From the NCBI RefSeq assembly GCF_037893015.1, contig NC_133660.1, positions 287,963,078 through 288,027,077 of the forward strand: 64,000 bases of DNA, in the 5' to 3' direction. Position 1 is the first letter of the stretch, and each line of letters starts with the position of its first letter. Origin of the DNA: Macrotis lagotis (lineage: Eukaryota; Chordata; Mammalia; Peramelemorphia; Peramelidae). The position numbers and the translations under genes are program-made. Below are positions 1 through 42,635 of this stretch, piece after piece. The notes under the pieces are model-generated. The model had not been told where the DNA came from, did no database searches, and was given only the letters and a program-made list of their open reading frames with translations.

Positions 1-3000
1 TTTGGTATACTTGTGTCAAAGGAATCAGAAAAGTGTCTGGCTTTCTTCAGATCACATGCAAGCAAGAAAGATGGGACTTCTCTTTGAACTGATTTCAGAG
101 GAAGAATAAAATTGAGTGGACTTTCTACCTGATATAACATCAAGGTTTGAGGTCTTTTGGATGCATTCCTTTGATTTCAGTAGATCCAGAGAAGACCTAA
201 CTTCTTCTATACCTATAGCTGATGTACCTTCACCAAAGGAGGAAGATGATTGTTTTGATGTGTTTTCTGTGGTAGCAAGGTAAAAGAAGGGACCTTGTAA
301 TGTTTCTGTTGGAAAATTTTTGTTAGAGGACTGAGAAATTTGCATGTTTTTTCACTGAAATAGGTTCAGAATTTGAAGGCTGTTGAGTTTCTTTTTTTGG
401 TAGACTTGTGTCATAGAAATCAGAAAACTATCTAGATTCTTTTGGACCAAATGTAAGCAAGTAAGGATGGGAATTCCTCTGTATCGTTGAATTGATTTCA
501 GAGGAAGGATATTGGATAGATTTGTTAACTGAAATAGCAGCTAGTTTTGAATTGTTTTGAAGGATTCCTTTGATTTCAGTTGACCCAGGGATATAACTTC
601 TCTGCCTGTAGCTGATGAACCTTCATCAATGGAAGAATGTTTTGATTTGCTTTCTTTGGCAGCAAGGCAAATGGAGGGAACTTGTAATATTTCTGTTGGC
701 AAACATATGTCAGAAGAGTGAGAAATTTGTGAGCATTTTCTCACTGAAATAGGTTCAGAAATTGAAGGCTGTTGTGTCTTTTTTTGGTAAACTTGTGTCA
801 TAAAAATCAGAAAACTGTTTGGATTCTTTAGGACCAAATGCAAGCAAGAAAGATGGGACTTCTATATCATTCTTTGAGTTGATTTCAGAGGAAGAAGGAA
901 ACTGGAGGGACATGCTGCCTGATATAATACCAAGGTTTGAGGAATTTTGGATGGATTCCATTGGTTTCAGTGATCCCAGGGAAGACAGAACTTTTTCTTT
1001 GTCTATAGCTGGTGACCCTGCATCAAAGGAGGAAGAAGATTATTTTGATTTGCTTTCTGTTGGTATCTGGGTTAGTGGAGGGAACTTGTAAACTTTCCCT
1101 TGGTAAACTTTTGTCAGAGGAGTGAGAAAATTGTGTACATTTGCTCATTTAAATAGGTATAAGGCTATAAGACCATTGAGAGTTCTCTTTTGGTGTACCC
1201 ATGTCAGAGAAGTCAGAAAACTGACTGGATTCTATTGAATAAAATGGAAGCAATGAAGATTGAATTTCTTCTATGTTGTTCATTGGACTGGAGTTAGAGG
1301 ACAAAGGAAATTGGGTGGACTTGTTAAACTGAAATGGTAACTAGGTTTGAAGAATTTTGGATGGCTTCCATTGATATCAGTGGACCTGGGAAAGACATAA
1401 CTTTTTCCCTGGTTACAGCTGATGAACCTGCATCTAAGGAGGAGGATTGTTTTGATTTGCTTTCTGTGGCAGCAAGATGGATCGAGGGAACTTGAAATGT
1501 CTCTGTTGGTAAGCTTTTGTCTGAGTGAGAAAATTGGGTGTATTTGTTCACCGAAATAGGTTCAGTAATTGAGGGCATTTGCGTGCCTTCATTTAGTATA
1601 TTTGTTTCAGAGAAATCAGAAAACTGCCTTAATTCTACTGGAGAATAGGACGTCTTCTGTATCATTCTTTGAATTGATTTCATAGGAGGAAGTAAATTGA
1701 GTTGACATGCTGCCTGAAATAACATGTAGGTGTGAGAGATTTTGGATGGATTCCTGAAAGTTTGGTGGACCCTGGGTTGGTAAAACTTCTCTGCTTACAG
1801 CCAATGAATCTGCATCAAAGAAATAAGTAGGTTGTTTCAATTTGCTTTCTGTGGCCTCAGAGTTGATTGAGGGAATGTGGAATGATTCTTGGTAAACTTT
1901 TGTCAGAGAAGTGAGACAATTGTATACATTTGGTCCCTGATATAGGTTCACTTTGCATATCATCTTTTAGTAGACTTGTGTCAGATAAATCAAGAAAGCT
2001 GCCTGGATTCTATTGGACAAAATGGAATCAAAGATGTCACTTCTTCTGTTTGATTCTTTGAATTGATTTCAGAGGAAGAAGGATATCAAATTGACATTAT
2101 GCTTGAAATAACAAGTTTTAAAGGATTTTGAATGGATTCCATTGTTTTTAGTGGTCTTGTTGAAGACATAAGTTCTACCATGTCATCAGCTGATGAACTT
2201 GCATTGAAGTGGGAAATAGATTCTGTTGGTTTGGTTTCTGTGGCAGTAAGATGGGTGGAGAGAACTTGAAAAAGTTCTCTTGGTAATCACATGCATTTGC
2301 TCATTGAAACAGGTTCAAAGATAGAAGGCCTTTGTGTAGCTTCTTTTGGGAGACTTGGTTCAGAGAAATCAGGATATGGCCTGGCATCTGTTGGAGGCAA
2401 AAAAGATGGAACTTCTTAGGTGTTATTCAATGAATTGTCATCAGAGGAAGGAAATTGGGTGTACTTGTTAATTGAAATAGCACCTAGGTTTGAGGTATTT
2501 TGGATGGATTCCCTTGTTTTCAGTGGACCCAGGGAAGGTGAATAATTTACATCAAAGGATTAACATATTTGTGTGGATTTGGTTTCTGTAGCTGCATAGT
2601 AAGTGGGGGGGGGACTTGTAAAGTTTCTCTTGGTAAACTTTTGTCAGAGGAGTGAAAAACATGTGTGCATTTGCTCACTGATATAGGTACAAGAATAGAA
2701 GGCCTTTGTGTGTTCTCTTTTAGTTCATTTGTGTCAGAGTAATGAGAAAGCTGCCTAGATTCTGTTGGTACAAAAATGAAAGCAAGAGAGTTGAAACTTC
2801 TGTATTATTCCTTGAAGTGATTTCAGAGGAAGAAGAAAATTGAGTGGACATGCTACTTGACGTAATAGCAAGATTTGAGGACTTTTGGATGGATTTCTTT
2901 GATTTCAGTTGATCCAGGGTAGACATAATTTCTTCCATGCCTACAGCTGATAAACCTTCACCAAAGGAGGAAGATGATTGTTTTGATTTGGTTTCTGTGG

Positions 3001-4990
3001 CAGCAAGGTAAAAGGAGGGAATTTGTAATGTTTTTGTTGGCAAATTTTTGTCAGAAGAGTCAGAAAACTGTGCATTTGCTCACTGAAATAGGTTCTAGAA
3101 TTGAAGGTCATTGTGTTTCCTCCTTTTGTATACTTGTATCAGAGAAATCAGAAAACTGCCTGGATTCTATTGGACAAAATGGAATCAAAGATTGAATTTC
3201 TTCTGTGTCATTCATTGAACTGGTGTTAGAGGACAAAGGAAACTGAGTGATTTTGTTAACTGAAATGGCAGCTGGGTGTGAGGAATTTTGGATGGATTCT
3301 GTTGATTTCAGTAGATGAGGGAAAGACACAACTCCTTCCCTGTCTATAGCTGAAGAACCTTCATCAAAGAAGTAAGTAGATGGTACTGATTTGCTTTTTG
3401 TGACAAGGAGGAAGGAGGGAACTTGTAAAGATTCTTTTTGTAAACTTTTGTCAGAGGAATGAGAAAATTGTGAGCTTTTGCTCACTGAAATAGGTTCAGG
3501 AATTGAAGGTCATTATGTGACATCTGTTGGTAAACTTGGGTCAGAGAAGTCAGGAGGTGACCTTAAGTCTGTTGGACAAAAAGTAGGCAAAAAGATGGAA
3601 CAACTTCTGTGTCATTCAAGATACTGTTATCAGAGGAAGATGCAAATTGGGTGGACTTGTTTTCTGAAAGAACACCAAGGTTCCAAGAATTTTGGATGGA
3701 TTTCCTTGGTTTTAGTGGACCCAGGAAAGACGTAACTTCTTCTAGGCCTACATCTGATGAACTTGCATCAAAGGAGGAAGTAGTTTGTGTTGATTTGCTC
3801 ATTGTGGCAGCATGTTAGGTGGAGGGAACTTGTAAACGTTCTCTTATTAAATTTTTATTAGAGGAGTGAGAAAATTGTTTGAATTTGCTTACTGAAATTG
3901 GTAAAAGCATAGTAGGCCTTTTTGTGTCTTCTTTTATTATAATTGGGTCAAGGAATTCAGGATGTGGCCTGGAGTCTGTTGGACAAAAAGGAAGCAAAAA
4001 AGATGGAACAATTTTTGTGTCATTCAATAAAATGTTATTAGAGGGAAAAAAGGAAATTGGGTAGACTCGTTAACTGAAATAACACCTAGATTTGAGGTAT
4101 TTTTGGATGGATTCCCTTGATTTCAACAGAACTGGGGAAGATATCACTTCTTCCATACATAGATTTAGATCTGCATCAAAGAAAGATGTTGTTTGTGTTG
4201 CTTTGCTTTGTATCATAGGAAGGTTGGAGGGAACTTGTAAAAGTTTCTCTTAGTAAACTCTTATCAGAGGAGTGAGAAAATTGTGTGCATTTGCTCACTG
4301 AAATAAGTACAAGGAGAGAAGGTCCTTGTGTGTCTCTCTTTGGTAAACTTATGTCAATCAGATAAATCAGAAAACTGCCTGAATTCTGTTGGACAAAATG
4401 GAAGTAATAAAGATTGAAACTACTTCTGTGTCATTCACTGAACTGTTAACAGAGGGAGAAGGTAATTGGCTGAACTTGTTAACTGAAATAGCACCTAGGT
4501 TTGAGATATTTTAGATGGATTTCCTTGATTTCAGGAGATCAGGAAACACACTGTTTCTTCCATGCCTCCAGCTGATGAATTTACATCAAAGATGGAACTT
4601 GTTTGTGTTGATTTGGTTTTTGTGACAACAAGGCCAGTGGAAGGAACTTGTAAAGTTTCTCTTGGTAAACTATTGTCAGAGGAGTGACAAACTTCTAGAA
4701 GTTTGCTCACTAAAATAGGTACAAGAAATAGAAGATCCTTTTGTTTCTTCTTTTGGGCTACTTGTGTCAGAGAAATCAGAAAACTGCCTGGATTCTGTTG
4801 GACAAAATGGAAGCAGTAAAGATGAAAATTCTTCTGTGTTATTCATTACATGGTCATCAGAGGAAGAAGGAAATTGGGTGGACTTGTTAACTGAAAGAGG
4901 ACCTAGGTTTGAGGTGTTTTGGATGTATTCCCTTGATTTCAGTGGACCTGGGGAAGACACCACTTCTTCCATGACTCCAGCTGAATGAAC
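1..4990 (-). pseudogene. Relic higher-order array, about 400-bp units, tail-related
   Basis: A landmark resembling 'gtcagagaaatcagaaaac' (plus strand) recurs near 11, 410, 795, 1202, 1608, 1980, 2350, 2728, 3137, 3540, 3948, 4355 and 4766, so spacing is 370-411 bp and about 12-13 units are present. Read on the minus strand in short open pieces, each unit holds four submodules of about 29 codons, recognisable by STQF, SRQFSDFSD, SQFSHSSDKS and SKSKQSSS, plus a shorter piece ESIQNSSNL. The resemblance to SIQFPSIS of the live array indicates common origin. No long open frame survives (longest piece about 130 codons). The array runs off the window start. Confidence 0.72.
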
Positions 4991-4999: not shown

Positions 5000-7210
5000 T
5001 CTAGATGCATGGGGTTTCTTCTATACAGTCTCCTGATTTATTTGAGCTGAAGGCAGGCAGAACTTCTATAGTCTTACACTAAAATTATTTCATATAGAGA
5101 GAATTTGGATAACTTTACTTGAAAAAAATCTCTCAACATAAGGAACTGCAGAATTTTGTTTTCTGAAATTAGGCTATATGAAGAATGAACTCCTATGGAA
5201 TCTTTTGATAATAGAATAGAGGGAGAATGATCCTTTTTTAATTTTTGTCCCTGAATTTGATCTGGTCAAAGGTAGACTGTGTTCTTTGATTAAACTTGAA
5301 ACTAACAAAGAAGGAATTTCTGAAGATTTGCTTAATGTAATAGGTCCAGAAGAAGGACCTTCTATGGGTTCCCTCAATAAACTTGAGGAAGGGGTAAAGG
5401 GACTTACTACAAATTCTCTTGCTGGAATAGAATTTGAGAAATAAAGGAATTGTAAAGATTTCCTCTCAGAAATTAGAACTTTTATAGATTCCCTTGATGA
5501 GCTTGAATAGAAAGAGGGACCTTCAGTGATAGTTATTGGTACACTTGGGCCTGAGAAAGAGGGAAAATGCAAAGATTTTTTTCAAGACAATTGGGACTGA
5601 GGGAATGGGAATTTCCATAGATTCCATGAGGGAACTTGACTTGGAAGAGGAAGGGAGAATTTGTATGGTTTTATTTGATTTATTTGGCCCTGAAAAAAGA
5701 GGGAAATTGCACAGATTTGTTCAGGGCAAGTGGACCTGAAGGTGTCACTTCTTCCATAGATTGAATAACTGCACTTAGATGGAAGAGGATTTCCTGAGAC
5801 TTCTGCTGAGGTGACCAGGCCTGAGATAGGAGGAAATTGCACAGAATTGGTCAGTAAATGTGGGCTTGAAGGTGTAGCATCTTCTATAGATTGAGTCATT
5901 AAACTTACAATAGATGGAGGAAGGTTTCTTGAGACTTCTGTTGTGGTAGTCAAGCTTGAGTTAAAAGGAAATTGTATAGATTTAGTCAGTGAAAGTGGGC
6001 TTGGACATGTGGCACCTTTCACAGATTGAGTCTTTGAGCTAATATTGGAGGCAGGTTGATTTCCTGGGACTTCTGTTGAGACAGCAGAGCCTGAGATAGA
6101 AGAATATTGCACAGACTTGGAGAGTGAAAGTGGAACTGAAGATGGGGTATCTTCAGTGCCTTGAATCATTGAACTTATATTGGTTGAAGAAAGATTTCCT
6201 GGAACTTCTGTTGATGTAATTGAGCCTGGGACAGAAAGAAGTTGCACAGATTTGTGCAGTGAAAGTGGTCTTGAAGTTGTGGCAAGTTCAATAGATTCAG
6301 TCAATTGACTTCTATTGGGTGAAGGAGAATTATCTGAGATTTCAGTTAGTGTAGTCAGGACTGAAGAATGTGGAGATTGCATAAATGTGATCAGATCAAG
6401 TACAGCTAAAGTTTTTACAGCTTCAGAAGATTGAGCTGATGAGCTTCCAATGGGTGAATGATGATTTTCTGTGACTTGAGTAGCTGGGGCAGAGGAAAAT
6501 GGAGATTTTCAGATGCAGTCATGTCAGGTGAAGGTGTGACATCTTCTCCGTGGTGAGTTACTCAACTGAATGTTGGTACAGAAGGATTTTCTTTGGTGTA
6601 TTTTCAATTTCAGTGGATTGAGGTATTGGGCAGATGAGAAACTTCTGTGATTTCCTTTGATATGGTGGGGACAGAGGAAGGTGGAGTCAGTTAAGTAAGC
6701 CAAAAGATATGGCATCTTCCCCATACTGAGTCCCTAAACTGGTATTGGATAGAGGTTTTTATGGGATTTTCTTTGGTTTATTTGGGACAGAACTTGGAGA
6801 CTGAATACATGTCACATCAAGTAAGTCAAAAGATAAGGTATCTTCTGGGAATTGAGTCACTAAACTGAAATTAGATGGAAGATTTTCTGTAAATTAGATT
6901 GGCATAATTAGAACAGAATAACGTGAAGATGGCACAGACATGGTTTGGTCAGTTAAGTATATGGGTGAGGCAATATCAGTGGATTCAGGTGATGGACTTA
7001 AAAGAGATGGACAAAGAGTTTCTCTGATATCCTGTGGTGCTGATGAGAATAACATGAAGATGGCACAAACATGGTTCAGTCAGCTAAGTGTATAGGTGAC
7101 ACAATATCAGTGGATTCAGGTGATGGACTTAAAAGAGATGGACGAGGATTATTTGTGATATCCTTTGGTGCAGATGAGACAGAATAACATGAAGATGGCA
7201 CAGACATGGT
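5000..7210 (-). pseudogene. Decayed continuation of the tail repeats beyond the stop
   Basis: This is host-gene sequence, related to the tail but no longer openly readable throughout. At about 5740-6400 four to five copies of a 135-bp (45-codon) unit remain, with LSLHKSVQLLSV, LSLSKSVQYSSIS and LSLTKSIQFPFNS as unit starts; TCTGTTG landmarks lie near 5800, 5934, 6069 and 6204. At about 6900-7210 further 135-bp units related to DQTMSVPSS occur. At about 5170-5740 the units are shorter, about 50-60 bp. It may be 3' untranslated sequence of gene A or dead former coding sequence. Possible AATAAA signals on the minus strand lie at 6777-6782 and 5037-5042; neither is proven. Confidence 0.7.
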
Positions 7211-8094
7211 TCAGTCAGCTAAGTTTAAAGGTGGGTCATTCTCAGGACTTAAAAGGGATGGATGAGGAGTGTCTCTGATATCCTGTGATGTTGATGAGAC
7301 AGAATGATGTAAAGATGGCACAGACATGCGCTGGTCAGTTAAGTATAAAGGTGGGGCTATATCAGGGGATTCAGTCAATGAAATTAAATTGGAAGTAGAG
7401 GGAGCTTCCGTAATATCCTTGGGTTCAGGTGAGACAGAGTGATGTGAAGGTAGCACAGACATGGTCTGGTCAGCTAAGTGTAAATATGGGACAATATCAG
7501 TGGATTGTTTGGTCCGTGAACTTAAATTGGATGGCCGAGGAGTTTCTGGGACTTCTGTTTTTCTGGCTGTGTCTGAGATAGAAGGAAATTGTACAGATTT
7601 GGACAGTACAAGTAGGCCCAAGTCTTCTCTAGATTGATATTCTGAGACTGCTGTTAGTGTGGCCATGTCTGAAATAGAAGGAAATTGTATAGATTTGGAC
7701 AGTGCAAGTTTATTTTCTGGGACTTGTGTTGGTGTTGTCATGCTTGTAATAGAAGGACATTGAACAGCTTTGGTCAATGCAGGACAACCTGAAGTTGTGA
7801 TATGTTCCATAGGTTGACTTTCTGAGACTTCTGTTGGTGTTGTCATGCTTGAGATAGAAGGATACTGTATAGATTTGGTCAGAGAAAGGAGGCCTGAATC
7901 TATGGTTTCTGTGGCTGAGACAGAAGGAAATTGCATAGATTTGGTCAGTGCAAGTAAGTCTGAAAGTCTGGTGTCTTTCATGGATTGACTTTCTGTGACT
8001 TCAGTTGGTAAAGCTGTGCCAGAGATAGAAGGAAACTGCATGGATTTGGTCCTTGAGAGGAGGCCTAAAAGTAGTGTATCTGTGACTTCTGAGC
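7211..8094 (-). repeat. C-terminal divergent repeats of the giant tail
   Basis: This is the last part of the 3,610-codon frame. Units become irregular: copies with TKSIQYPSISS and SKSVQFPSISD are followed by longer units containing DQTMSVLPSHHSVS and DQRMSVPSLHHSVS, spaced about 45 codons. It is a bridge between the regular 29-codon array and the 135-bp units that continue past the stop. Confidence 0.8.
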
Positions 8095-11000
8095 CTGTGG
8101 TTGTAAAGGAGATGGAAGGAAATTGTACTGATTTGGTCAATGCAAAGAGGTCCAAAGGTGTCCCATCTGTGACTTCTGTGGCTGTAGCTGTGCTTGAGAT
8201 CGAGGGAAATTGTATTGATTTGGTCAATGAAAAGAGGTTTGAAGGTGTCCCATCTGGCACTTCTGTGGCTGTAGCTGTGCTTGAGATTGAGGGAAATTGT
8301 ATGGATTTGGTCAATGAAAAGAGGTTTGAAGGTGTCCCATCTGTCACTTCGGTGGCTGTAGCTATGAATGAGACAGAAGGAAACTGCATTGATTTGTTCA
8401 ATGCAAAGAAGTCTGAAGGTGTCCCATCTGTGACTTCTGGGGTTGTAGCCGTGCTTGAGATGGAAGGAAATTGTATCGATCTGGTCAATGCAGAGAGGTC
8501 TGTAGGTATCTCCTCTGTCACTTCTGTGGCTGTAGCTGTGTTTGAGATCGAAGGAAACTGTATCGATTTAGTCAATGCAGAGAGGTCTGTAGGTATCCCT
8601 TCTTTCACTTCTGTGGCTGTAGCTGTGTTTGAGATTGAAGGAAACTGTATCGATTTGGTCAATGCAGAGAGGTCTGTAAGTATCCCCTCTGTCACTTCTG
8701 TGGCTGTAGCTGTGTTTGAGATCGAAGGAAATTGTATTGATTTGGTCAGTGCAGAGAGGTCTGTAGGTATCTCCTCTGTCACTTCTCTGGCTGTAGCTGT
8801 GTTTGAGATGGAAGGAAACTGTATCGATTTAGTCAGTGCAGAGAGGTCTGTAGGTATCCCCTCTGTCACTTCTGTGGCTGTAGCTGTGTTTGAGATTGAA
8901 GGAAATTGTATCGATTTAGTCAATGCAGAGAGGTCCGTAGGTATCCCCACTGTCACTTCTGTGGCTGTAGCTGTGTTTGAGAGCGAAGGAAATTGTATCG
9001 ATTTGGTCAATGCAGAGAGGTCTGTAGGTATCCTCTCTGTCACTTCTGTGGCTGGAGGTATGCTTGAAATGGAAGGAAATTGTATTGATTTGGTCCATGC
9101 AGAGAGGTCTGTAGGTATCCCCTCTGTCACTTCTGTGGCTGTAACTGTGTTTGAGATCGAAGGAAATTGTATCGATTTGGTCAATGCAGAGAGGTCTGTA
9201 GGTATCCCTTCTTTCATTTCTGTGGCTGTAGCTGTGTTTGAGATAGAAGGAAATTGCATCGATTTGGTCAATACAGAGAGGTTTGTAGGTATCCCCTCTG
9301 TCACTTTTGTGGCTGGAGCTATGCTTGAAATAGAAGGAAACTGTATTGATTTGGTCCATGCAGAGAGGTCTGTAGGTATCCCCTCTGTCACTTCTGTGAC
9401 TGTAGCTGTGTTTGAGATAGAAGGAAATTGTATCGATTTGGTCAATGCAGAGAGGTCCGTAAGTATCCTGTCTGTCACTTCTGTGGCTGGAGGTATGCTT
9501 GAAATGGAAGGAAATTGTATTGATTTGGTCCATGCAGAGAGGTCTGTAGGTATCCCCTCTGTCACTTCTGTGACTGTAACTGTGTTTGAGATCGAAGGAA
9601 ATTGTATTGATTTGGTCAATGCAGACAGGTCTGTAGCTGTCTGCTCTGTCACTTCTGTGGCTGTACCTGTGTTTGAGAGTGAAGGAAATTGTATCGATTT
9701 GGTCAGTGCAGAGAGGTCCGTAGGTATCCTGTCTGTCACTTCTGTGGCTGGAGGTATGCTTGAAATGGAAGGAAATTGTATTGATTTGGTCCATGCAGAG
9801 AGGTCTGTAGGTATCCCCTCTGTCACCTCTGTGACTGTAGCTGTGTTTGAGATCGAAGGAAACTGTATCGATTTGGTCAATGCAGAGAGGTCTGTAGGTA
9901 TCCCCTCTGTCACTTCTGTGGCTGGAGCTATGCTTGAAATAGAAGGAAACTGTATTGATTTTGTCCATGCAGAGAGGTCTGTAGGTATCCCCTCTGTCAC
10001 TTCTGTGGCTGGAGGTATGCTTGAAATGGAAGGAAATTGTATTGATTTGGTCCATGCAGAGAGGTCTGTAGGTATCCCCTCTGTCACCTCTGTGACTGTA
10101 GCTGTGTTTGAGATCGAAGGAAACTGTATCGATTTGGTCAATGCAGAGGGGTCTGTAGGTATCCCCTCTGTCACTTCTGTGGCTGGAGGTATGCTTGAAA
10201 TGGAAGGAAATTGAATCGATTTGGTCCATGGAGAGAGGTCTGTAGGTATCCCCCCTGTCACTTCTGTGGCTGTAACTATGCTTGAAATGGAAGGAAATTG
10301 TATCGATTTCGTCCATGCAGAGAGGTCTGTAGGTATCCCCTCTGTCACTTCTGTGACTGCAGCTGTATTTGAGATGGAAGGAAATTGTATAGATTTGGTC
10401 AATGCAGAGAGGTCTGTAGGTATGCCCTCTGTCACTTCTGTGGCTGTAGCTGTGTTTGAGATAGAAGGAAATTGTATCGATTTGGTCAATGCAGAGAGGT
10501 CTGTAGGTGTCCCCTCTGTTACTTCTGTGACTGTAACTGTGTTTGAGATTGAAGGAAATTGGATCAATTTGGTCAATGCAGAGAGGTCTTTAGGTGTCCC
10601 CACTGCCACTTCTGTGGCTGTAGCTGTGTTTGAGATGGAAGGAAATTGTATTGATTTGGTCAATGCAGAGAGGTCTGTAGGTATGCCCTCTGTCACTTCT
10701 GTGGCTGTAGCTGTGTTTGAGATAGAAGGAAATTGTATCGATTTGGTCAATGCAGAGAGTTCTGTAGGTATCCTGTCTGTCACTTCTGTGGCTGTAGCTA
10801 TGCTTGAAATGGAAGGAAACTGTATGGATTTGGTCAATGCAGAGAGGTCTGTAGGTATCCCCTCTGTCACTTCTGTGACTGTAACTGTGTTTGAGATCGA
10901 AGGAAATTGTATCGATTTGGTCAATGCAGACAGGTCTGTAGCTGTCTGCTCGGTCACTTCTGTGGCTGTAGCTGTGTTTGAGAGCGAAGGAAATTGTATT

Positions 11001-14000
11001 GATTTGGTCAATGCAGAGAGGTCTGTAGGTATCCCCTCTGTCACTTCTGTGGCTGTAACTGTGCTTGAGATGGAAGGAAATTGTATCACTTTGGTCAAAG
11101 CAGAGAAGTCTTTAGGTGTCTCCTCTGTCACTTCTGTGGCTGAAGCTGTGAATAAGACTGAAGGAAATTGTATTGATTTGGTCAATGCAGAGAGGTCTGT
11201 AGGTGTCTCCTCTGTCACTTCTGTGGCTTTAGCTGTGTTTGAGAGCGAAGGAAATTGTATTGATTTGGTCAATGAAGAGAGGTCTGTAGGTGTCTCCTCT
11301 GTCACTTCTGTGTCTGTAGCTGTGTTTGAGAGTGAAGGAAATTGTATCGATTTGGTCAGTGCAGAGAGGTGTGCAGGTGTCTCCTCTGTCACTTCTGTGG
11401 CTATTACTGTGCTTGAGATGGAAGGAAATTGTACCGATTTGGTCAATGCAGAGAGGTCTGTAGGTGTCTCCTCTGTCACTTCTGTGTCTGTAGCTGTGTT
11501 TGAGAGTGAAGGAAATTGTATCGATTTGGTCAATGCAGAGAGGTCTGTAGGTATCCCCTCTGTCACTTCTGTGGCTGTAGCTGTGCTTGAAAGTGAAGGA
11601 AATTGTATCAATTTGGTCACTGCAAAGAGGTCTGAAGGTGTCTCCTTTGTCACTTCTGTGGCTGTAGCTATGTCTGAAACCCAATGAAATTCTATCGATT
11701 TGGTCAATGCAGAGAGGTCTGCAGGTGTTTCCTCTGTCACATCTGTGGCTATAACTGTGCTTGAGATAGAAGGAAATTGTATCAGTTTGTTCAAAGCAGA
11801 GAGGTCTGTAGGTGTCTCCTCTGTCACTTCTGTGGCTGAAGCTGTGAATGAGACTGAAGGAAATTCTATCGATTTGGTCAATGCAGAGACATCTGTAGGT
11901 GTCTCCTCTGTCACTTCAGTGGCTGTAGCTGTGCCTGAAACCAAAGGAAATTCTATTGATTTGGTCAGTACAGTGAGCTCTGTAGGTGTCTCCTCGGTCA
12001 CATCTGTGGCTATAACTGTGCTTGAGATGGAAGGAATTTGTATTGGTCTTTTCAAAGCAGAGAGGTCTTTAGGTGTCTCCTCTGTGACTTCTGTGGCTGA
12101 AGCTGTGCCTGAAACTGAAAGAAATTCTATTGATTTAGTCAATGCAGTGAGGTCTGTAGGTGTCTCCTCTGTCACTTCTGTGGCTATAACTGTGCTTGAG
12201 ATGGAAGGAAATTGTATCGGTTTGGTCAATGCAGAGAGGTCTGTAGGTGTCTCCTCTGTCACTTCTGTGGCTGTAGCTGTGCCTGCAACTGAAGGAAATT
12301 CTTTCGATTTGGTCAATGCAGAGAGGTCTGTAGGTGTCTCCTCTGTCACTTCTGTGGCTGAAGCTGTGCCTGAAACTGAAGGAAATTCTATCGATTTTGT
12401 CAATGGAGAGAGATCTGTAGGTGTCTCCTCTGTCACTTCTGTGGCTTTAGCTGTGTTTGAGAGCGAAGGAAATTGTATTGATTTGGTCAATGCAGAGAGG
12501 TCTGTAGATATCCCCTCTGTCACTTCTGTGGCTGTAGCTGTGTTTGAGATAGAAGGAAATTGTATCGATTTGGTCAGTGCAGAGAGGTGTACAGGTGTCT
12601 CCTCTGTCACTTCTGTGGCTGTAGCTGTGTTTGAGAGTGAAGGAAATTGTATCGATTTGGTCAATGCAGAGAGGTCTGTAGCTATGCCCTCTGTCACTTC
12701 TGTGGCTGTAGCTGTGTTTGAGAGTGAAGGAAATTGTATCGATTTGGTCAATGCAGAGATGTCTGTAGCTATGCCCTCTGTCACTTCTGTGGGTGTAGCT
12801 GTGTTTGAGATCGAAGGAAATTGTATCGATTTGGTCAACGCAGAGAGGTCTGTAGGTATACCCTCTGTCACTTCTGTGGCTGTAGCTGTGCTTGAAAGTG
12901 AAGGAAATTGTATCAATTTGGTCACTGCAAAGAGGTCTGAAGGTGTCTCCTTTGTCACTTCTGTGGCTGTAGCTGTGTCCGAAACCCAATGAAATTCTAT
13001 TGATTTGGTCAATGCAGAGAGGTCTGCAGGTGTTTCCTCTGTCACTTCTGTGGCTGTAATTGTGCTTGAAAGTGAAGGAAATTCTATCGATTTGGTCAAT
13101 GCAGTGAGGTCTCTGGGTGTCTCCTCTGTCACATCTGTGGCTATAACTGTGCTTGAGATAGAAGGAAATTGTATCAGTTTGTTCAAAGCAGAGAGGTCTG
13201 TAGGTGTCTCTTCTGTCACTTCTGTGGCTGTAACTGTGCTTGAGATGGAAGGAAATTGTATCAGTTTGGTCAAAGTAGAGAGGTCTGTAGGTGTCTCCTC
13301 TGTCACTTCTGTGGCTGTAGCTGTGCCTGAAACCAAAGGAAATTCTATCGATTTGGTCAATGCAGTGAGGTCTCTGGGTGTCTCCTCTGTCACATCTGTG
13401 GCTATAACTGTGCTTGAGATAGAAGGAAATTGTATCAGTTTGTTCAAAGCAGAGAGGTCTGTAGGTGTCTCCTCTGTCACTTCTGTGGCTGAAGCTGTGA
13501 ATGAGACTGAAGGAAATTCTGTTGATTTGGTCAATGCAGAGACATCTGTAGGTGTCTCCTCTGTCACTTCAGTGGCTGTAGCTGTGCCTGAAACCAAAGG
13601 AAATTCTATTGATTTGGTCAGTACAGTGAGGTCTGTAGGTGTCTCCTCTGTCACGTCTGTGGCTATAACTGTGCTTGAGATGGAAGGAATTTGTATTGGT
13701 TTTTTCAAAGCAGAGAGTTCTTTAGGTGTCTCCTCTGTGACTTCTGTGGCTGAAGCTGTGCCTGAAACTGAAAGAAATTCTATTGATTTAGTCAATGCAG
13801 TGAGGTCTGTAGGTGTCTCCTCTGTCACTTCTGTGGCTATAACTGTGCTTGAGATGGAAGGAAATTGTATCGGTTTGGTCAAAGCAGAGAGGTCTGTAGG
13901 TGTCTCCTCTGTCACTTCTGTGGTTGTAGCTGTGCCTGAAACCAAAGGAAATTCTGTCGATTTGGTCAATGCAGAGAGGTCTGAAGGTGTCTCCTCTGTC

Positions 14001-17000
14001 ACTTCTGTGGCTATAATTGTGCTTGAGATGGAAGGAAATTGTATCGGTTTGGTCAAAGCAGAGAGGTCTGTAGGTGTCTCCTCTGTCACTTCTGTGGTTG
14101 TAGCTGTGCCTGAAACCAAAGGAAATTCTGTCGATTTGGTCAAAGCAGAGAGGTCTTTAGGTGTGTCCTCTGTCACTTCTGTGGCTGAAGCTGAGATTGA
14201 GACTGAAGGAAATTCTACCGATTTGGTCAATGCAGAGAGGTCTGTAGGTGTCTCCTCTGTCACTTCTGTGGCTGTAGCTGTGCCTGAAACTGAAGGAAAT
14301 TCTATCGATTTGGACAATGCAGAGAGGTCTGTAGGTGTCTCCTCTGTCACTTCTGTGGGTGTAGCTGTGCCTGCAACTGAAGGAAATTCTGTCGATTTGG
14401 TCAATGCAGAGAGGTCTTTAGGTGTTTCCTCTGTCACTTCTGTAGCTGAAGCTGTGCCTGAAACTGAAGGAAACTCTATCGATTTGGTCAATGCAGGGTC
14501 TTTAGGTGTCTCCTCTGTCACTTCTGTAGCTGAAGCTGTGCCTGAAACTGAAGGAAATTCTATCGATTTGGTCAGTGCAGAGAGGTCTGTAGGTGTCTCC
14601 TCTGTCACTTCTGTGGCTGTAGCTGTGCCTGCAAGTGAAGGAAATTCTATCGATTTGGTCAATGCAGAGAGGTCTTTAGGTGTCTCCTCTGTCACTTCTG
14701 TGGCTGTAGCTGTGCCTGCAAGTGAAGGAAATTCTATCGATTTGTTCAATGCAGAGAGGTCTGTAGGTGTCTCCTCTGTCACTTCTGTGGGTGTAGCTGT
14801 GCCTGAAACTGAAGGAAATTCTGTCGATTTGGTCAATGCAGAGAGGTCTTTAGGTGTCTCCTCTGTCACTTCTGTAGCTGAAGCTGTGCCTGAAACTGAA
14901 GGAAACTCTATCGATTTGGTCAGTGCAGGGTCTTTAGGTGTCTCCTCTGTCACTTCTGTAGCTGAAGCTGTGCCTGAAACTGAAGGAAATTCTATCGATT
15001 TGGTCAATGCAGAGAGATCTGTAGGTGTCTCCTCTGTCACTTCTGTGGCTGTAGCTGTGCCTGCAAGTGAAGGAAATTCTATCGATTTGGTCAATGATGA
15101 GAGGTCTTTAGGTGTCTCCTCTGTCACTTCTGTGGCTGAAGCTGTGCCTGAAACTGAAGGAAATTCTATCGATTTTGTCAATGGAGAGAGGTCTGTAGGT
15201 GTCTCCTCTGTCACTTCTGTGGCTGAAGCTGTGCCTGTAACTGCAGGAAATTTTATTGGTTTGGTCAAAGGAGAGAGGTCTTTAGGTGTCTCCTCTGTCA
15301 CTTCTGTAGCTGAAGCTGTGCCTGAAACTGAAGGAAATTCTATCGATTTGGTCAATGCAGAGAGGTCTGTAGGCATCTCCTCTGTCACTTCTGTGGGTGT
15401 TGCTGTGCCTGAAACTGAAGGAAATTCTATCGATTTGGTCAATGCAGAGAGGTCTTTAGGCGTCTCCTCTGTCACTTCTGTGGCTGAAGCTGTGCCTGAA
15501 ACTGAAGGAAATTCTATTGATTTGGTCAATGGAGAGAGGTCTTTAGGTGTCTCCTCTGTCACTTCTGTAGCTGAAGCTGTGCCTGAAACTGAAGGAACTT
15601 CTATCGATTTGGTCAATGCAGAGAGGTCTGTAGGTGTCTCCTCTGTCACTTCTGTGGCTGTAGCTGTGCCTGAAACTGAAGGAACTTCTATCGATTTGGT
15701 CAATGCAGAGAGGTCTGTAGGTGTCTCCTCTGTCACTTCTGTGGCTGAAGCTGTGCCTGCAACTGAAGGAAATTCTTTCGATTTGGTCAATGCAGAGAGG
15801 TCTTTAGGCGTCTCCTCTGTCACTTCTGTGGCTGAAGCTGTGCCTGAAACTGAAGGAAATTCTATCGATTTGGTCAATGGAGAGAGGTCTTTAGGTGTCT
15901 CCTCTTTCACTTCTGTGGCTATAGCTGTGCCTGAAACTGAAGGAAATTCTATCGATTTGGTCAATGCAGAGAGGTCTGTAGGTGTCTCCTCTGTCACTTC
16001 TGTGGGTGTAGCTGTGCCTGCAACTGAAGGAAATTCTGTCGATTTGGTCAATGCAGAGAGGTCTTTAGGTGTTTCCTCTGTCACTTCTGTGGCTGAAGCT
16101 GTGCCTGAAACTGAAGGAAATTCTGTCGATTTGGTCAATGCAGAGAGGTCTTTAGGTGTTTCCTCTGTCACTTCTGTGGCTGAAGCTGTGCCTGAAACTG
16201 AAGGAAATTCTATCGATTTGGTCAATGCAGAGAGGTCTGTAGGTGTCTGCTCTTTCACTTCTGTGGCTGAAGCTGTGCCTGAAACTGAAGGAAATTCTGT
16301 CAATTTGGTCAATGCAGAGAGGTCTGTAGGTATCTCCTCTGTCACTTCTGTGGCTATAGCTGTGGCTGAAACTGAAGGAAATTCTATCGATTTGGTCAAT
16401 GCAGAGAGGTCTGTAGGTGTCTCCTCTGTCACTTCTGTGGCTATAGCTGTGCCTGAAACTGAAGGAAATTCTATCGATTTGGTCAATGCAGAGAGGTCTG
16501 TAGGTGTCTCCTCTGTCACTTCTGTGGGTGTAGCTGTGCCTGCAACTGAAGGAAATTCTATCGATTTGGTCAATGCAGAGAGGTCTTTAGGTGTCTCCTC
16601 TGTCACTTCTGTGACTGAAGCTGTGCCTGAAACTGAAGGAAATTCTATCGATTTGGTCAATGCAGAGAGGTCTGTAGGTGTCTCCTCTGTCACTTCTGTG
16701 GCTGAAGCTGTGCCTGAAACTGAAGGAAATTCTGTCAATTTGGTCAATGCAGAGAGGTCTGTAGGTGTCTCCTCTGTCACTTCTGTGGCTATAGCTGTGC
16801 CTGAAACTGAAGGAAATTCTGTTGATTTGGTCAATGCAGAGAGGTCTGTAGGTGTCTCCTCTGTCACTTCTGTGGCTATAGCTGTGCCTGAAACTGAAGG
16901 AAATTCTATCGATTCGGTCAATGCAGAGAGGTCTGTAGGTGTCTCCTCTGTCACTTCTGTGGCTATAGCTGTGCCTGAAACTGAAGGAAATTCTATCGAT

Positions 17001-18380
17001 TCGGTCAATGCAGAGAGGTCTGTAGGTGTCTCCTCTGTCACTTCTGTGGCTGAAGCTGTGCCTGAAACTGAAGGAAATTCTATCGATTTGGTCAATTCCG
17101 AGAGGTCTGTAGGTGTCTCCTCTGTCACTTCTGTGGCTGAAGGTGTGCCTGAAGGTGTGCCTGAAACTGAAGGAAATTCTATCGATTTGGTCAATGGAGA
17201 GAGGTCTGTGGGTGTCTCCTCTGTCACTTCTGTGGCTGAAGCTGTGCCTGAAACTGAAGGAAATTCTATCGATTTCGTCAATGCAGAGAGGTCTGTAGGT
17301 GTCTCCTCTGTCACTTCTGTGGCTGAAGCTGTGCCCGAAACTGAAGGAAATTCTATGGATTTGGTCAATGCAGAGAGGTCTGTAGGTGTCTCCTCTGTCA
17401 CTTCTGTGGCTGTAACTGTGCTTGAGATGGAAGGAAATTGTATCGGTTTGGTCAAAGCAGAGAGGTCTGTAGGTGTCTCCTCTGTCACTTCTGTGACTGA
17501 ATTTGTGCCTGAAACCAAAGGAAATTCTATAGATGTGTTCGATGCAGAGAGGTCCGTAGGTGTCTCCTCTGTCACTCCTGTGGCTGAGGCTGTGAATGAG
17601 ACTGAAGGAAATTGTATTGATTTAGTCAATGCACATGCAAAGGTGTCTGTAGAGGTGGCATCTTCCATGGTTTCTGTTGCTGTAGTTGCATCCGAGTAAG
17701 ATGGGCATTGGACTGATTTGGTGAGTAAATGTGAATCCAAACATTTGGTATCTTCTGTTGATATAGTCCTGCTTGAGATAGAAGGAAATTGCACTGATAT
17801 GCTTGCTGCTGCGAGTTTGGAGGAAAGGGGATCTTCTGAGCTGGAGGAAGAGAGATATTTTGTGGACTCACTCACTGAGCTTGTGCTGGAAGAAGGGGGA
17901 AATTCTGTCATTTCCCCCCCCGAACTTAGATCTGAATATGAAGAAACTTGCACAGATTTGTCTGTTGAAAGTGGTTCTAATAAAGAGGACTGTTGTGTCA
18001 AAGTACTTGATGAATTTGTAGTAGAGAAATAGGAAACTTGCATGGATTCACTTGTGGAAGATGAAGTGTTGCGCTGTGAATTTACTACTGAAGTTAAAAA
18101 TCCAATCGATGATTCTTCAGGTACTCTTGGAGAAGGTGGGGGGGGGAGGAGGAGGGGGAGGAGGGGGAAGGGGAGGAGGAGGGGAAGAGGAAGGAGGTGG
18201 GTGGGTGACAGGGCTTCCCAAAGCTTTTAGTTTAAAGAAAGTATGGCCCCTAATCAAGGAGACTGATTTTTTTTCTTCATTTGTGTCAGAAGGATTTTTC
18301 TCAATCTGGATCTGTAACTGGTTTGCCACATTCTCAGTTTGTTTGGGTTTCTTGACTTCAGAAGATGGGAAATACGAATT
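7211..18380 (-). CDS. MS4A14: MS4A14-like gene A, giant last exon encoding the repeat tail
   Basis: An acceptor TTTATAG precedes AATTCG at 18380. The first frame reads NSYFPSSEVKKP, NQLQIQIEKNPSD, TFFKLKALGSP, then a proline-rich run, and ends at a stop at 18119-18117. The second frame, open from inside the proline run, reads PSPRVPEESS, IGFLTSVV and then the 3,610-codon frame from 18043 to the TGA at 7213-7211. The two frames differ by one base at the nine-C (minus strand) tract 18138-18146. Residue make-up of the large frame: about 38% Ser plus Thr in the core repeat, strongly acidic, almost no Cys or Trp except in some copies. It has no signal of a folded domain; a disordered cytoplasmic tail is my inference. 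Confidence 0.72.
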
Positions 18381-21300
18381 CTATAAAGTCAACCAGAAAT
18401 GACAGATATTAATTTCCCTAAAGTCATTTCCTGTGAGAGTCATCTTTCCCATAGTTTTTTCTCTACCTGTTTCTGAGGATTCTCAGCCTTTTCTAAGGTC
18501 TTCTCTCATCATCATCAAATCATCCTTTCTTCCCCCTCTTATTGGGGCATTTCTGCTTCCATTGTGATCATATTTCACCCCATTTCCTGCCTTAACAGGT
18601 AAATCCTTTGCTCAGTAGAGTATTTAGGGAAAGACCCTCATTAATTTCTCTACTAGCAAAACAAAACAAAAAATTAAATCTAGCAAAGTAAAAACATCCC
18701 TCTCTGCTCTCTCAAACAGGTTAAACTCTAATTGTTTTAGAGTCACCCAAAGGAAGAAGTGACTGTCTCCTCACTGAGGCAAATGAAAATCCACCACCAA
18801 AATGAAATTTAAGGCTATATTACTGAATGAGACCTAATTTGTTCTTTTCTTTGGTTTAATATGTATTTTTAAGCAGAACAATAAATAAACTAAAACCAAA
18901 TAGCTCATATTCTTTATTTTTATTCCTTTCCATAGCACCCTTGGATGGGATGCCATATTTTATAGCCATGCTATTGAATGTTTTAAAAGGAAATTGAATT
19001 CAAGGATGACTCTGGATGTGGGCTGCCCTCAATATGGAATGTGGGTAGTACTCTTCTAGACTTATAAATCCTTCCCAGACACACAAATGACCCAGCTTTT
19101 CAAAGGATATACCAGTGATATACTACCTCTAGCAGTTATGCCATGCTGAAAAAGGTACAGTAAAGGCCCTGTGAAGCCAAGATATCCAGAAACTGGTCCA
19201 GCTAAGAATACAGGGGACCATTAAGGGATGAATTTCTTGGGCAAAGGTCTTGTCAAAGTATTCTCATTTCCCTTTAAAACTTCTTTTCTTTTTATCTTTT
19301 GGGAGTTTGGTGATACTATATGTACAGAATAATTGAATCCTTGGGTAGTAATCATAAAAAATTTAAGATCTCATGGGAAGTGTTAGATTTTCCTTTCCCT
19401 GAAAGATCCAGGTTGCAATAATTATTGGGTACTCATCTCATCTTTTTTGTTTTATAGGAAGCTTTGTCTACATGTAAAGAAAATTCAGCTATTCTCCACC
19501 ACTGAAATTGCAGAGAGGATACAGACTCAGGCAAGTTGAATGATTGCCCATGGTCACAAAGGCAGTGAATGCAAAGCTCAGGCCTAAAAACCATTTTAGT
19601 TTTAGTAGCAGTTTGGTATGTGGGCTCTGGGTATGGTGAAAGAAACACAAAAGGAGAAGAGACCTTTCTAGAAATTGGAAGAAGCAAGGATCCCCAGAAG
19701 GTGGGAAAAAATCTCCCTCCATTTCCTTACTGATACTCCCTACCTCCCACTCCATCTTCTTCTCAAAGGATTCCTGTACTTTGATCCACTCCCTGAGTGC
19801 ATCTTAAAGAAGATGCCAGCCCAGTCACCTTCCAAGATGTCACAACCTGTCTTGGTTCTCTCAAAGATGTTGAGCAGGCCTCATCTGCAGGGCTTTCACT
19901 TGTTCTTTTACACTTTAAGACTAAGACTAGTGCGGCGATGGAGAATTGGATGACTGTGAGGATCAGCAAGATGCACAGGACACCCTGCAAGAGAGGTGAA
20001 CAGAGTAGAGATGTCCACCTTTTAGAGGACTTGAGGCAGTGGGTACCTGATTGGTGTTGGGAAAGTCATGAAGCAGAGCAAGGACAACATACTTCACCTG
20101 CTTCTGCAGGCATAGGATATGGACACATTACTGGTGCCATATCATATTATCATTACAACAAAAGCAGCAGCAGTAAATAATGACTAACATTCATGTAGCA
20201 TTTGTAAGGTTTACAAAGCGCTATGAATGAGAAAAGAGGATGAGAGAGGATAAGTGATTTGTTTAAGTCTCTTAAGAAGTTAAGACATGGGGTGGCTAGG
20301 TGGCACAGTGGATAGAGCACCGGCCCTGAAGTCAGGAGGACCTGAGTTCAAATCTGGCCTCAGGCACTTAATGATTACCTAGCCGTGTGGCCTTGGGCAA
20401 GCCACTTAACCCCATTGCCTTGCAAAAACTTAAAAAAAAAAAGGTTGACACAAGCAGGATTTGAACTTAAGGCTTCCACTCTACCCTTAGCTGTCCCTAT
20501 GTCAATTTAATATTGTAATTAGGCCTGAATCTAACCATTGAATCCTAGTGACTCTAATCTCTTCCAGATGAGAACCCTTTAGGTCATCTGAAGCAAGCAC
20601 TCATGGCTGCCCCTAATTTTCTCCTGTCCAGTATAAGCACCACCAATTTCTTCAACCTTTTTTTTTTATATTGCATGGTTCTGGTTTTCTCTTTGTCTTG
20701 GTCCTTCAATGTCGTAACTACCTCCAGTTTGTTAGTGACTGTCTCATAATGTGATGCTAAGCTGGAGCACAATTCTCCAGCCAAGGTCTATAGGCTGAGC
20801 AGTCCAAGTACCTTTCCTTTTTCTAGAATCTCCAATCCTATTAATGACTTCCTAAAACCACTTTGTCTCTCTGACATCAGCAATCCTTTTGCTGTCTCAA
20901 ATAGGGGTTGCAATGAATCTGAATCTCCAACCCTTTGTTATGAAACATTCATGAGACAGATTTTTTTAAGTTTTTTTTTTTGCAAGGCAATGGGGTTAAG
21001 TGGCTTGCCCAAGGTCACACGGCTAGGTAATCATTAAGTGTCTGAGGCTTGATTTGAACTCAGGTACTCCTGACTCCAGGGCTGGTGCTTTATCCACTGG
21101 GCCACCTAGCCCTGCTACAGTGGATTTTTTTTAAACGTGATTTTTAAAAACAGATTCTTAAAATTTTATCAAGTATATTTTTTAATGAAATCTTCTTTGT
21201 TTCTAAGTATGATCCTCCCCTTGCCTCTTCTCCCAAAATGATAATAAAGAATAAAAAAAGAGACTTAATAAAGACATCCCTCAAAACTTGACGAACAAGT

Positions 21301-24300
21301 GTGAAACATATATAATCTTCCCACACTTAGTCTTTTCCCTTTGCAGATAAGAAAGGGAGGGACATTTTCTTATCTCCTTTTAGGAGATATTCTTCTTTGA
21401 ATCTTGTAAAATTTTCTATGATGTGATTTGACTTCCTTGTCAAATCCTTTTCCAGGTTATTTGAATATAATTATTAAGTCAAAGAGTCCCTGGAACCAAT
21501 CCCTATAGACCTGAATTTCCAGAAAAATGTCCAATTACTTACATTATTGCCGTCTAGCTAGCTTCCAAACCTTGAAAACATAGTTCTCATAGGAGAATGA
21601 CTCTGACCCTTTAAAGTCTTACCTTTACTTCTGTGTAAATCAAGTTTCTTTTAAGTATCAGAAGCGTAGAGGACAGGATAGTAGTTTCCCACACTGAGTC
21701 AGAAAACTGAGGACCCTTTGGTTTCCCTCTAGTAATCTCTGAGTTAGTGATTTGACTAGCCACACAATTGAATAGATTCAGTTATTTGATTGAATAACAA
21801 ACTTTTTGCTGCACAGATGCATTGTTTGATGGGGAAAAGCAAGAACTTTTTTTTCAGTCTTATTGTGAGTCAATGAGAATGGAGAAAACTAGAGTCTCCC
21901 AGGAGATACTCAATTGCCTTGGTTTCTGTCCTAATTCAAAAAAAGTCTGAGGAACTGAGATCCATGGGCAGAAATCATGAAGTGTAGTCAGTGGAACTCC
22001 TTTGGAGCTCCAGAAAGCTTCATCCCCTTTTAGGGAGTAGGTGATGATGATGTTTGTCCTTTGTTCTTGAAGAAGATATGATGTCAGGGAGGTGAGGCCA
22101 TGCTAAGTCACCAGCCCCACTTTCTCCTCCAGAGTCATCTGGGTCCAGTGGCCATATAGGAATCTGAGGACTGGAGATGGCCCAGGATGTGAGGCACTCA
22201 GGGTTAAGTGTCTTGCCCAAAGTCACACAGCTAGCAAGAGTCAAGTGTGTGAGATTGGATTCAGACTCCTGTCTTCCTAATTCCAAGGCCAGGGCTCTAT
22301 CCACTGTACTATCTAGCTGCCTAGTAGAATGGAAAGAGGCATTTATTTTAGGTTTTTGCAAGTCAATGGGCTTAAGTGGCTTGCCCAAGGTCACAAAGCT
22401 AGGTAATTATGAAGTGTCTGCAGTTCAGTTTGAACTCAGGTCCTCCTGACTCCAGGGTACGTGCTCTATCCACTGCGCCACCTAGCCACCTGAAAGAGGC
22501 ATTTCTGATTGAGTAAAACTTTGGAATGATTTTAGGACTTAGAAGAAATCTTAAAGGCAGTGTGATAGAATCAGTATAGTATGAGGTTTGGAACCAGGAA
22601 GACCTGACTGAAACCAACCCACACATTGCCTCCCTTGGGACCATTTACCATCTTTACATCTTGTTTTCCTGTATGTCCAATGTGGGGTTATCAGGAGGAT
22701 TAATGGAATTCTGTAAGGAAACTACAGGAAGCCCCAGCCATGGGAAGGTACTTGCCAGGTCCCAGGGATGATCAGATAGTGCTGATCATCACAGTGCTGA
22801 CAATCACTATTATAAGCAGTTACATAGTCCTTTCAGCTTTCAGAATTGTCTGTTGTTTCACTGTACCTCCTAACAACCCTGTGAGCTAGGTTCTATTCAG
22901 GTTATCATCTAGCTTCCTCAGGACTCACAGTCTAAATTGCTGGGGGGGGGTTCCTTTAGCTCCATTTCATCTAGGGTGACTCTGGTCCTGGAATCAGGAA
23001 TCATCTTTCTGAGTAAAAATCTGGATTCAGTTATTAGCTGTGTGATTCCGGACAAGTCGCATAACCCTATGTTTGCCTCAGTTTCTTCACCTATAGTAAA
23101 ATACACTGTGGCAGGAAATGGCAGACCACTCCAGTATCTCTGCCAAGAAAACATCAAATTGGGGGGGGGGGGTCACAGGGTCAGACTGAAAATGGTGGAA
23201 CATCTAGGGGGCAAGTCAGATTGCTCCAAGAGATTTCAATAAAGGGATTACAATTACTTACATGAAGAACAATTTCACTTGTGATACATATGCTGCTTGC
23301 TGAAGGGCGAACACATTGGAGTAACTGATGGACAGATAAGCTGTAGAAGAGGATGCCAATCCCAGATGCAGAGACCATGGCGCTGAGAATATCCATGTAA
23401 AGACTCATACGGTCCTGGAAGAGAATGACAGCAGATGCCCAGCCACTGGGTCTTTCCCATTTGGGACCAGAAGGGAGAGAGTTCTGAGCATTGTAGCCTA
23501 AGACCCACACTTCAGGACTTCAGTCCCCAGGGCTCCAGATGAGTTTAGACCAGTTGCTTGTGGCAAATACTGGATGTCCTAATTGGACAAGGCTGTAGGG
23601 GAGCCCAGAATCCCTAGACTGAGAATAATGGCAGGAGCAGGGAGCCAGGAAACCTCATTGTGACTGTGCCCCAGTTGATGCCAGCTCTCTGTATTTTGGG
23701 GGCTGGAGCCAAATTAATCAAATCTAGTTTCACTGTCTCAAAGCTCAATGAAATCATCTTTACGAAGTACAAGTGAAGTCAGATTGGCCCGAGTTGGCTC
23801 CCCAGATATTTGGCAGAGATAGAAGCAAACCTACTGGGGGAAGTGGAAAAGGTAAAGGAATAAATATTTCTACAGCACCTACTTTAACATTAACAATCAG
23901 GACTCTATGTGCTTTATAAATATTTTAACCTCAGTGCAATGCTGGAAGGGAGATAATATTATTATCCTCATTTTACAGGAAAGGAAACTGAGACAAACAG
24001 TGGTAAAGTAACCTGTTCAGGATTATACAGCTAGTAAATGTCCAAGGTCAAACTTGAATTCATATTGGTAGTGGACAATATAACAGTACCTTTAAAAACA
24101 AAGTCGGTGAGATTGGAAGAAGATGGGAGGTGGAGAAATAAGAAAACATTCAATTGACACTAAGGTTAGACACTAGTGACTATAGCTATAGAACATATCC
24201 AGCCTTTATTTTTCATTCTGAGAAAACCTCTTTGTTAGGATTAAAAGCTTTCTCTCAATCTGTTTTGCTTTTCCATTAATTTCAAAACTTAGGGTTGTCT

Positions 24301-30580: not shown

Positions 30581-31194
30581 GATGTTGGAATTCATTCTGG
30601 GGCAGAAATCTGCTCTGTCTAAGCAGATGAGCCTTGCCGCCCACGTCACATTCTGCTTCTCCTCTGGGCTGGTAAGCTACTCCTTTGCTTTCTATTGGAA
30701 TCCTGAAAGCATGGAATCCTGGAGTCATAAGAGCCATGGAACACCAGAGTCATAGAACCATGGGCTTGGGAGGGACCTCCAGGCTCTATCTCTGGACACT
30801 GGTTTGTCTTTCATTTTGTGTTATGAATTTGATTCTCATTAAGACAAACAATAAAGACAAACACAAGCATTCATATTTTAAAAAAGAACACCAAAGAGGA
30901 TTGAATGTGAACCCATGAGTTTCTGCCATATGTGGTCTGACATTTCTTAAAGTGTATATTAAAGAGAACTAATTGAGAGCCATTTCACAAAAATCCTAGA
31001 GAGAAGAGAACATGAAAGAGAAGTTCAAATGATAACAAAGCCTGTACAGAGAAGCTAAGAAGGATAAGGACTGAGAAAAGGATACTGGATTTGAGAATTA
31101 GATCATTAGTCACTTTGGAGAGAACAGCTTCAACTGAATGAGGTCAGAAGCTGGTCTGTAAAGTTAAGAAGATGAGAGGAAAAGGAATGATGAC

Positions 31195-35560: not shown

Positions 35561-35623
35561 AGAGAGGGAGAAGTATGAAAGGGAGGGGAAAGTGGGCTCT
35601 AGGGCTTCTTATAGCTCTTAGCT

Positions 35624-35764
35624 TTAATAAGTATAATTTCCAGTTAAGGAGAGAGAGAGGTCCTTCTCATTTTGACCAACAGGGTTTGCCTGAATCTGGA
35701 ACTGGAATCTTTCCTCTTCATGATGTCCAAGTTCTTTGCCTTCAGAAGGCAAGAAAAACACTAC
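35624..35764 (-). CDS. MS4A14-like gene B, short last exon
   Basis: After a TTTTATAG acceptor the frame reads VVFFLPSEGKELGHHEEE, RFQFQIQANPVGQNEKD, then SLSLTGNYTY and TAA at 35626-35624. In the frame shifted by two bases after the CT run (35649-35659) the sequence continues LNWKLYLLKLRAIRSPRAHF to about 35520, which matches the TFFKLKALGSP region of gene A. A two-base CT slip is therefore the likely cause of early termination. Confidence 0.72.
   Translation of the reverse strand, partial: VVFFLPSEGKELGHHEEERFQFQIQANPVGQNEKDLSLSLTGNYTY

Positions 35765-42580: not shown

Positions 42581-42635
<55 letters not shown>

Follow-up and report, generated by a model that had tools for sequence, protein, structure and literature searches.

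We analysed a 64,000-nucleotide stretch of the Macrotis lagotis genome (assembly GCF_037893015.1, contig NC_133660.1, forward-strand positions 287,963,078 to 288,027,077; hereafter the window, in whose coordinates all features are given). Hydrophobic open stretches exposed two tandem genes resembling the MS4A family of four-pass membrane proteins, which we call gene A and gene B, and a large array of 87-bp tandem repeats belongs to gene B. A sequence-only reading of this DNA had proposed an MS4A14-like protein with a giant repetitive tail; its family assignment is upheld and its coding tail supported, and it had overlooked a break in the reading frame, a decayed extension of the tail downstream and the tandem sister gene.

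Gene B lies on the minus strand and has five exons ahead of its tail exon. Exon 1 (30437..30595), predicted to encode the N-terminal cytoplasmic part, extends from a chosen ATG, its upstream end and start codon being putative, to a phase-0 donor GTAAGT. It is the weakest exon call: a first pattern search for N-terminal exons came back empty, a second returned that of gene A only, and the gene B exon was placed by its similarity to the N-terminal exon region of gene A (DNA alignment E 2.7e-13, tblastn E 0.003, 13/48 aligned residues identical). Exon 2 (27549..27686), located by a CD20 match and splice sites, carries the first transmembrane segment (TM1) and the first half of TM2, exon 3 (26301..26354) the second half of TM2 (YTITGVFTILNGVKYASQ), exon 4 (23262..23414) TM3 and exon 5 (19829..19984) TM4, with donor AAG/GTGACT; all four are in phase 0. 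In both genes, each of exons 1-5 is a multiple of three in length and has a GT donor, each of exons 2-5 has an AG acceptor, and the four hydrophobic segments fall on successive exons (TM1/2a, 2b, 3, 4), named from hydrophobicity and the CD20 alignment. All five gene B exons are open.

Joined, these exons match Pfam CD20 (PF04103) at 53.0 bits against a cut-off of 27.9, spanning profile positions 2-156 of 156, which together with the four segments upholds the proposed MS4A membership. Only two of six single exon stretches reach the cut-off, both of them TM1/2 exons. For gene B this is the open stretch 27465-27776 around exon 2 (29.5 bits); exon 5 alone scores 14.2 bits, below the cut-off, exon 4 alone has no Pfam match, and exon 2 alone gave no credible match in the PDB. 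An MS4A14-type identity is plausible, given the long open frame after TM4, itself offset by one base from the frame of the transmembrane exons, and the motifs TAFPY.P...FLKGEP in gene A and FFKL in gene B, which we take to resemble human MS4A14. In gene B, the intron that separates the TM2 and TM3 exons holds a long simple-sequence region (24451-25156; TG, GAGA and AGAC repeats), and a 166-codon open frame within it is probably spurious.

The array frame runs on the minus strand from 18226 to 7211 and, in the open reading frame listing, is uninterrupted for 3,671 codons before its stop. Tandem Repeats Finder reports a period of 87 bp and 110.4 copies over 8022-17631, and successive anchors in the array protein are spaced exactly 29 residues apart in 107/114 cases, bearing out the earlier description of some 110 repeats in register. 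The seven deviating spacings are 28, 28, 32, 33, 35, 59 and 82 residues; those of 59 and 82 span diverged units that the anchor pattern missed. Between 8036 and 17611 we delimited 107 units of 29 residues and three length variants (33, 28 and 28 residues), with the unit consensus FPSVSSTATATEVTEETPTDLSALTKSIQ and a mean identity to it of 0.91. Counted from 18121, the tail comprises 3,636 residues, including 1,259 serines and threonines (34.6%) and 495 aspartates and glutamates, with a net charge of -322. This agrees with the length of about 3,600 residues first proposed; the composition then given per 29 residues, 11 serines and threonines and a net charge of -4, was too high, the averages being about 10 and -2.6. 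Protein P0001 gave no Pfam family above cut-off (three matches were sub-threshold) and no PDB sequence match at 0.001. All array counts come from one haplotype.

We considered and rejected the possibility that the array is an assembly duplication, because exact repeats within it reach only 164 bp and 100 of the 107 units are distinct. Among the longest exact repeats, lags of about 19 units (1,647 and 1,653 bp) turn up repeatedly, as between 16090 and 14443 and between 13882 and 12229, which suggests that a multi-unit segment was duplicated within the array. Exact repeats of at most 164 bp and a 19-unit, 1,653-bp lag are the pattern that prolonged unequal exchange would leave.

The array and the membrane part are separated by a single base of phase. 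The acceptor of the tail exon reads TTTATAG/AATTCG, placing the start of the exon at 18380, and the phase-0 end of exon 5 fixes the frame in which it is read. Read in this frame, the tail exon (18117..18380, minus strand) begins NSYFPSSEVKK...IRGHTFFKLKALGSP and polyproline, and ends at a TGA whose first base is 18119; its translation can be written NSYFPSSEVKK...IRGHTFFKLKALGSPVTH, then prolines and TFSKST. The array frame is shifted one base later and does not open until 18226, so that the sequence-only reading's single coding exon at 7211-18380 does not hold. Both frames are open between 18226 and 18119, and inside this overlap lies a run of nine C (18138..18146, minus strand), the longest homopolymer in 7211-18380, where the others of at least 7 are an A8 and a G8. 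The one-base offset is most likely a homopolymer-length assembly error in this C-tract or a recent, possibly segregating, null allele. From the assembled sequence, production of the full giant protein is at most a prediction.

At its other end the array frame is closed by a TGA (7211..7213) that falls within a C-terminal unit of 45 codons; the copy after it has a stop at the equivalent place, about 7078. Below this stop repeats persist, as broken sequence, as far as the window edge. A 308-codon fragment at 5582..6508 (minus strand) is still open and consists of 45-residue units with a Q...TEV core, which gives three pattern matches, one of them retaining Q-F-P. Beyond it, 12.5 copies of a 408-bp unit of 136 residues occupy 1..4956 (minus strand) and run off the window, and the former tail would therefore have been longer than the window shows. 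Of the three sense frames, just one is open in the consensus of the 12 complete copies, which contains QFPSSSDNNSMNDTEEV. These copies carry 41 insertions or deletions, 22 of them frameshifting, and 12 stops in 1,550 codons, counts that cover the copies in 1-4956; further breaks, between 7210 and 4957, were seen in three-frame translation. The sequence below the array stop looks like former coding sequence that has decayed. Open reading frames at 5582-6508 (-), 1324-1794 (-), 48794-49285 (+) and 62267-62842 (-) had no Pfam match at E 0.1.

The decayed neighbour is an internal control for the 29-residue array. It has 767 differences with 22 frameshifts and 12 stops, whereas the 29-residue array has 844 differences with neither; had lesions accrued in it at the neighbour's rate per difference, it should hold 24.2 frameshifts and 13.2 stops. 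The open frame of the array is free of both throughout, as a coding tandem repeat should be. A parsimony reconstruction over the 100 distinct units gave 333 changes, 124 synonymous, 209 nonsynonymous and none creating a stop, against 89.5, 232.4 and 11.1 expected under the same mutation spectrum, so that the ratio of nonsynonymous to synonymous changes is 0.65 of expectation. Sense frame +2 offers a fair comparison, with a consensus equally free of stops and an identical number (11) of stop-making single changes, and there 26/107 units contain a stop, against 0/107 in the coding frame.

Constraint is uneven across the unit. Scaled to synonymous changes, substitutions that alter residue class stand at 0.35 for acidic residues, 0.46 for proline, 0.61 for lysine and arginine, 0.63 for serine and threonine and 0.69 for hydrophobic residues, acidic residues being the most resistant among the well-represented classes. 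The most constrained positions are V13 of TEV (1 change against 13.0 expected), P2 (2 against 11.7) and F1 (3 against 12.2); with 29 positions tested, Bonferroni correction leaves only V13 and P2. Two block comparisons in the 3′ part give a nonsynonymous distance (dN) below the synonymous distance (dS), at 0.104/0.152 and 0.114/0.147 (0.68 and 0.77). We infer that the tail was translated while it diverged, and that selection would act on frame, acidity and parts of the FP...TEV core and not on the exact sequence.

We consider it probable that gene B is an MS4A14-type gene with a disordered, acidic tail of 29-residue units in fast turnover, and that the offset at the C-tract reflects either an error of assembly or a recent null allele. 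On this account gene B would encode a CD20-family four-pass membrane protein, most likely of a marsupial MS4A14 type, whose last exon would have carried a very long, acidic, serine- and threonine-rich cytoplasmic tail, its disorder and topology being predicted. The tail would have grown and shrunk by in-register unequal exchange, giving an array that is homogeneous at its centre and diverged at its edges and in the older 45- and 136-residue units. A stop inside a 45-residue unit would have severed the older part, which then decayed, and the frame retained by the 29-residue array can be read as selection for a translated product. The protein would reside in spermatids or sperm, where the tail could serve as a brush or scaffold that is long, negatively charged and phosphorylatable, its bulk properties outweighing its exact sequence.

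Several observations weigh against this account. As assembled, the membrane part and the array do not form one open frame, so straightforward translation would not yield the giant protein. Array differences are shared by descent, which makes the P values rough. The P value for zero stops, 1.3e-5 over all changes, weakens to 0.009 over the 139 distinct variant types, and normalising by distinct types lowers the expected frameshifts to 6.9 (P 0.001). Of those 139 types, 1 would make a stop if placed in the consensus in the coding frame, and 6 would do so in sense frame +2. T19 shows 17 changes where 9.3 were expected. Of the 12 overlapping block comparisons listed, 10, all in the 5′ part, have dN above dS, at ratios of about 1.2-1.4 (for example 0.063/0.048), so that block-wise dN/dS speaks against strong sequence constraint; the coding tail first proposed is nonetheless supported by the stop, frameshift and amino-acid tests. 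Human MS4A14 is also found in monocytes and other myeloid cells (PMC9290968), and it is tabulated among the human genes for which homozygous loss-of-function variants are listed (PMC3868571), which makes a real loss plausible.

The human listing favours the alternative that gene B died recently, the offset being real and fixed, the protein ending after the polyproline and the array surviving as undecayed 3′ untranslated sequence. The offset is, after all, present in the assembled sequence, the tail frame of gene A ends about where gene B reads FFKL (FFKLKALGSP), and the older tail downstream has already decayed. Yet 11 kb without a stop or a frameshift would leave little time since the loss, exons 1-5 are open, and the offset lies just where the interval has its longest homopolymer. 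We regard a dead gene as unlikely, while still deserving serious consideration.

Alternative splicing could also reconcile the two frames, if an intron removed the C-tract region or exon 5 were spliced directly to an acceptor inside the tail that keeps the frame. The CT-rich stretch looks like a strong polypyrimidine tract, with 18/19 pyrimidines before AAG/, and the exon after it would begin at 18125 in phase 2. GT donors of phase 2 are present at 18375 and 18318, but both look poor by the donor consensus (ATTC/GTATTT and ACCA/GTTACA). Phase-0 acceptors exist at 18223, 18073, 17989 and 17866, but they carry 12, 9, 9 and 8 pyrimidines of 19, and direct joining would lose the FFKL segment, which aligns with gene A DNA. 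We find a spliced bridge improbable.

Openness alone is weak evidence of coding. One antisense frame comes close to being open as well, with 3 stops in 8022-17631, falling in 3/107 units, because the 87-bp unit is free of stops in that frame. Long antisense open frames of up to 1,568 residues are seen over the array (7989-17699, plus strand). If the array were a neutral tandem repeat, open simply because its unit happens to lack stops, that would account for this near-openness, for the excess of dN over dS in the 5′ part and for the flat codon-position entropy (0.42, 0.38 and 0.37). Such a view fares badly against the stops in the comparable sense frame, which the coding frame escapes, and against the intact phase of an array whose decayed neighbour has 22 of 41 insertions or deletions frameshifting, and we judge this explanation, already disfavoured, very improbable. 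We give least credence of all, hardly any, to a biological offset in which a short MS4A protein is the default and a +1 ribosome shift, or polymerase slippage on the C-tract, adds the tail of about 3,600 residues to some molecules at a tunable dose, even though, as in programmed frameshifting of the antizyme type, the downstream frame is shifted by +1 and is already open when the upstream one reaches its TGA (overlap 18226-18119).

A role in sperm is probable by analogy with placental MS4A14. Human MS4A14 RNA is found mainly in testis among tissues, with protein staining in spermatids and spermatozoa (PMC9290968). Phosphorylation is a feature of the placental proteins in sperm, with boar phosphosites at Ser442/Ser451 and Ser302/Thr305 (PMC8322956) and buffalo phosphosites at S349 and S283, alongside ubiquitylated K492, K541 and K547 (PMC7894524).

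Short motifs in the tail itself mostly reflect composition or repetition. Proline-directed sites are not enriched ([ST]P, 97 against 98.0 in shuffled sequence), nor are CK2-like [ST]..[DE] sites (179 against 171.5), and basic-x-[ST] kinase, N-glycosylation, PxIxIT-like and 14-3-3-like patterns occur at or below shuffled means; [ST]P.[DE] reaches 77 against 13.0, which we attribute to the repeated word ETPTD. The segment K-S-[IV]-[QE]-F fits the generic RVxF pattern 91 times against 1.5 in shuffled sequence (a stricter pattern, 3 against 0.1), but one chance motif would be amplified along with its unit, and the generic pattern arises in 0.7-1% of shuffled single units. Within it, I changes 12 times (10.7 expected) and K 5 times (8.2 expected), at or near expectation and therefore unconstrained, and F changes 3 times (12.2 expected) and is constrained. 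The 136-residue consensus carries KSTQF, with T at the V/I position. We rejected a PP1-docking (RVxF) tail as a supported mechanism, given the unconstrained V/I position, the T in that consensus and the possibility of an amplified chance motif.

Comparable proteins are known in part. Human and bovine MS4A14 combine an MS4A four-pass domain with an exceptionally long C-terminal region (PMC2826416), as is predicted for gene B; gene B differs in a tail of 3,636 residues, made mostly of 29-residue units, out of frame as assembled and lying beside a decayed array. In-frame tandem units occur in the mouse sperm genes Zan, Txndc2, Tsga8, Qrich2 and Fscb and also in Fam186a, the latter with 12-25 copies of 57 bp (PMC12903361), whereas gene B has about 110 copies of 87 bp on an MS4A protein. 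The opossum has marsupial MS4A genes of unusual length with tandem MS4A domains, of 2 or 6 subunits (PMC2826416); those repeat the membrane domain, whereas gene B repeats a tail motif and its domain is single. In the accessible open-access literature on MS4A14, on MS4A in marsupials and on coding repeats in testis, a tail of the gene B type is undescribed, and the sole MS4A mention in the accessible text of the Antechinus genome paper is MS4A1 (PMC9631953).

Gene A (35470..46221, minus strand) lies upstream of gene B as its tandem sister and shares its exon layout, with exons at 46221-46078, 44737-44603, 43899-43846, 41021-40869 and 37972-37871, a putative start codon and a tail exon around 35750, a position that is approximate, the acceptor not having been located. 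Its joined exons score 63.8 bits against Pfam CD20 (profile positions 2-154, cut-off 27.9) and match FcepsilonRI beta (MS4A2) in the PDB at 5.9e-18. No array was seen at gene A (35470-46221). Compared by NG86, the exons of the two genes differ by a dN of 0.54 and a dS of 0.88, which hints at weak constraint and is not decisive. Elsewhere in the window, the short interspersed element (SINE) word GGATAAAGCACC, presumably of a marsupial family and the ground in the sequence itself for a marsupial origin, occurs with at most 1 mismatch in 7 copies against 0.28 expected (20310, 21084, 29276, 31316, 33051, 43586 and 57793).

A single C-tract such as that of gene B can lead annotation pipelines to truncate or drop a gene of this kind. 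If the tail is made, it would enlarge what is usually a small membrane protein, probably one of sperm, by some 376 kDa on a rough estimate. The neighbouring fossil array would then show tail gain and loss at a single locus, and the adjacency of live and dead arrays would allow measurement of what selection sees in a disordered repeat tail.

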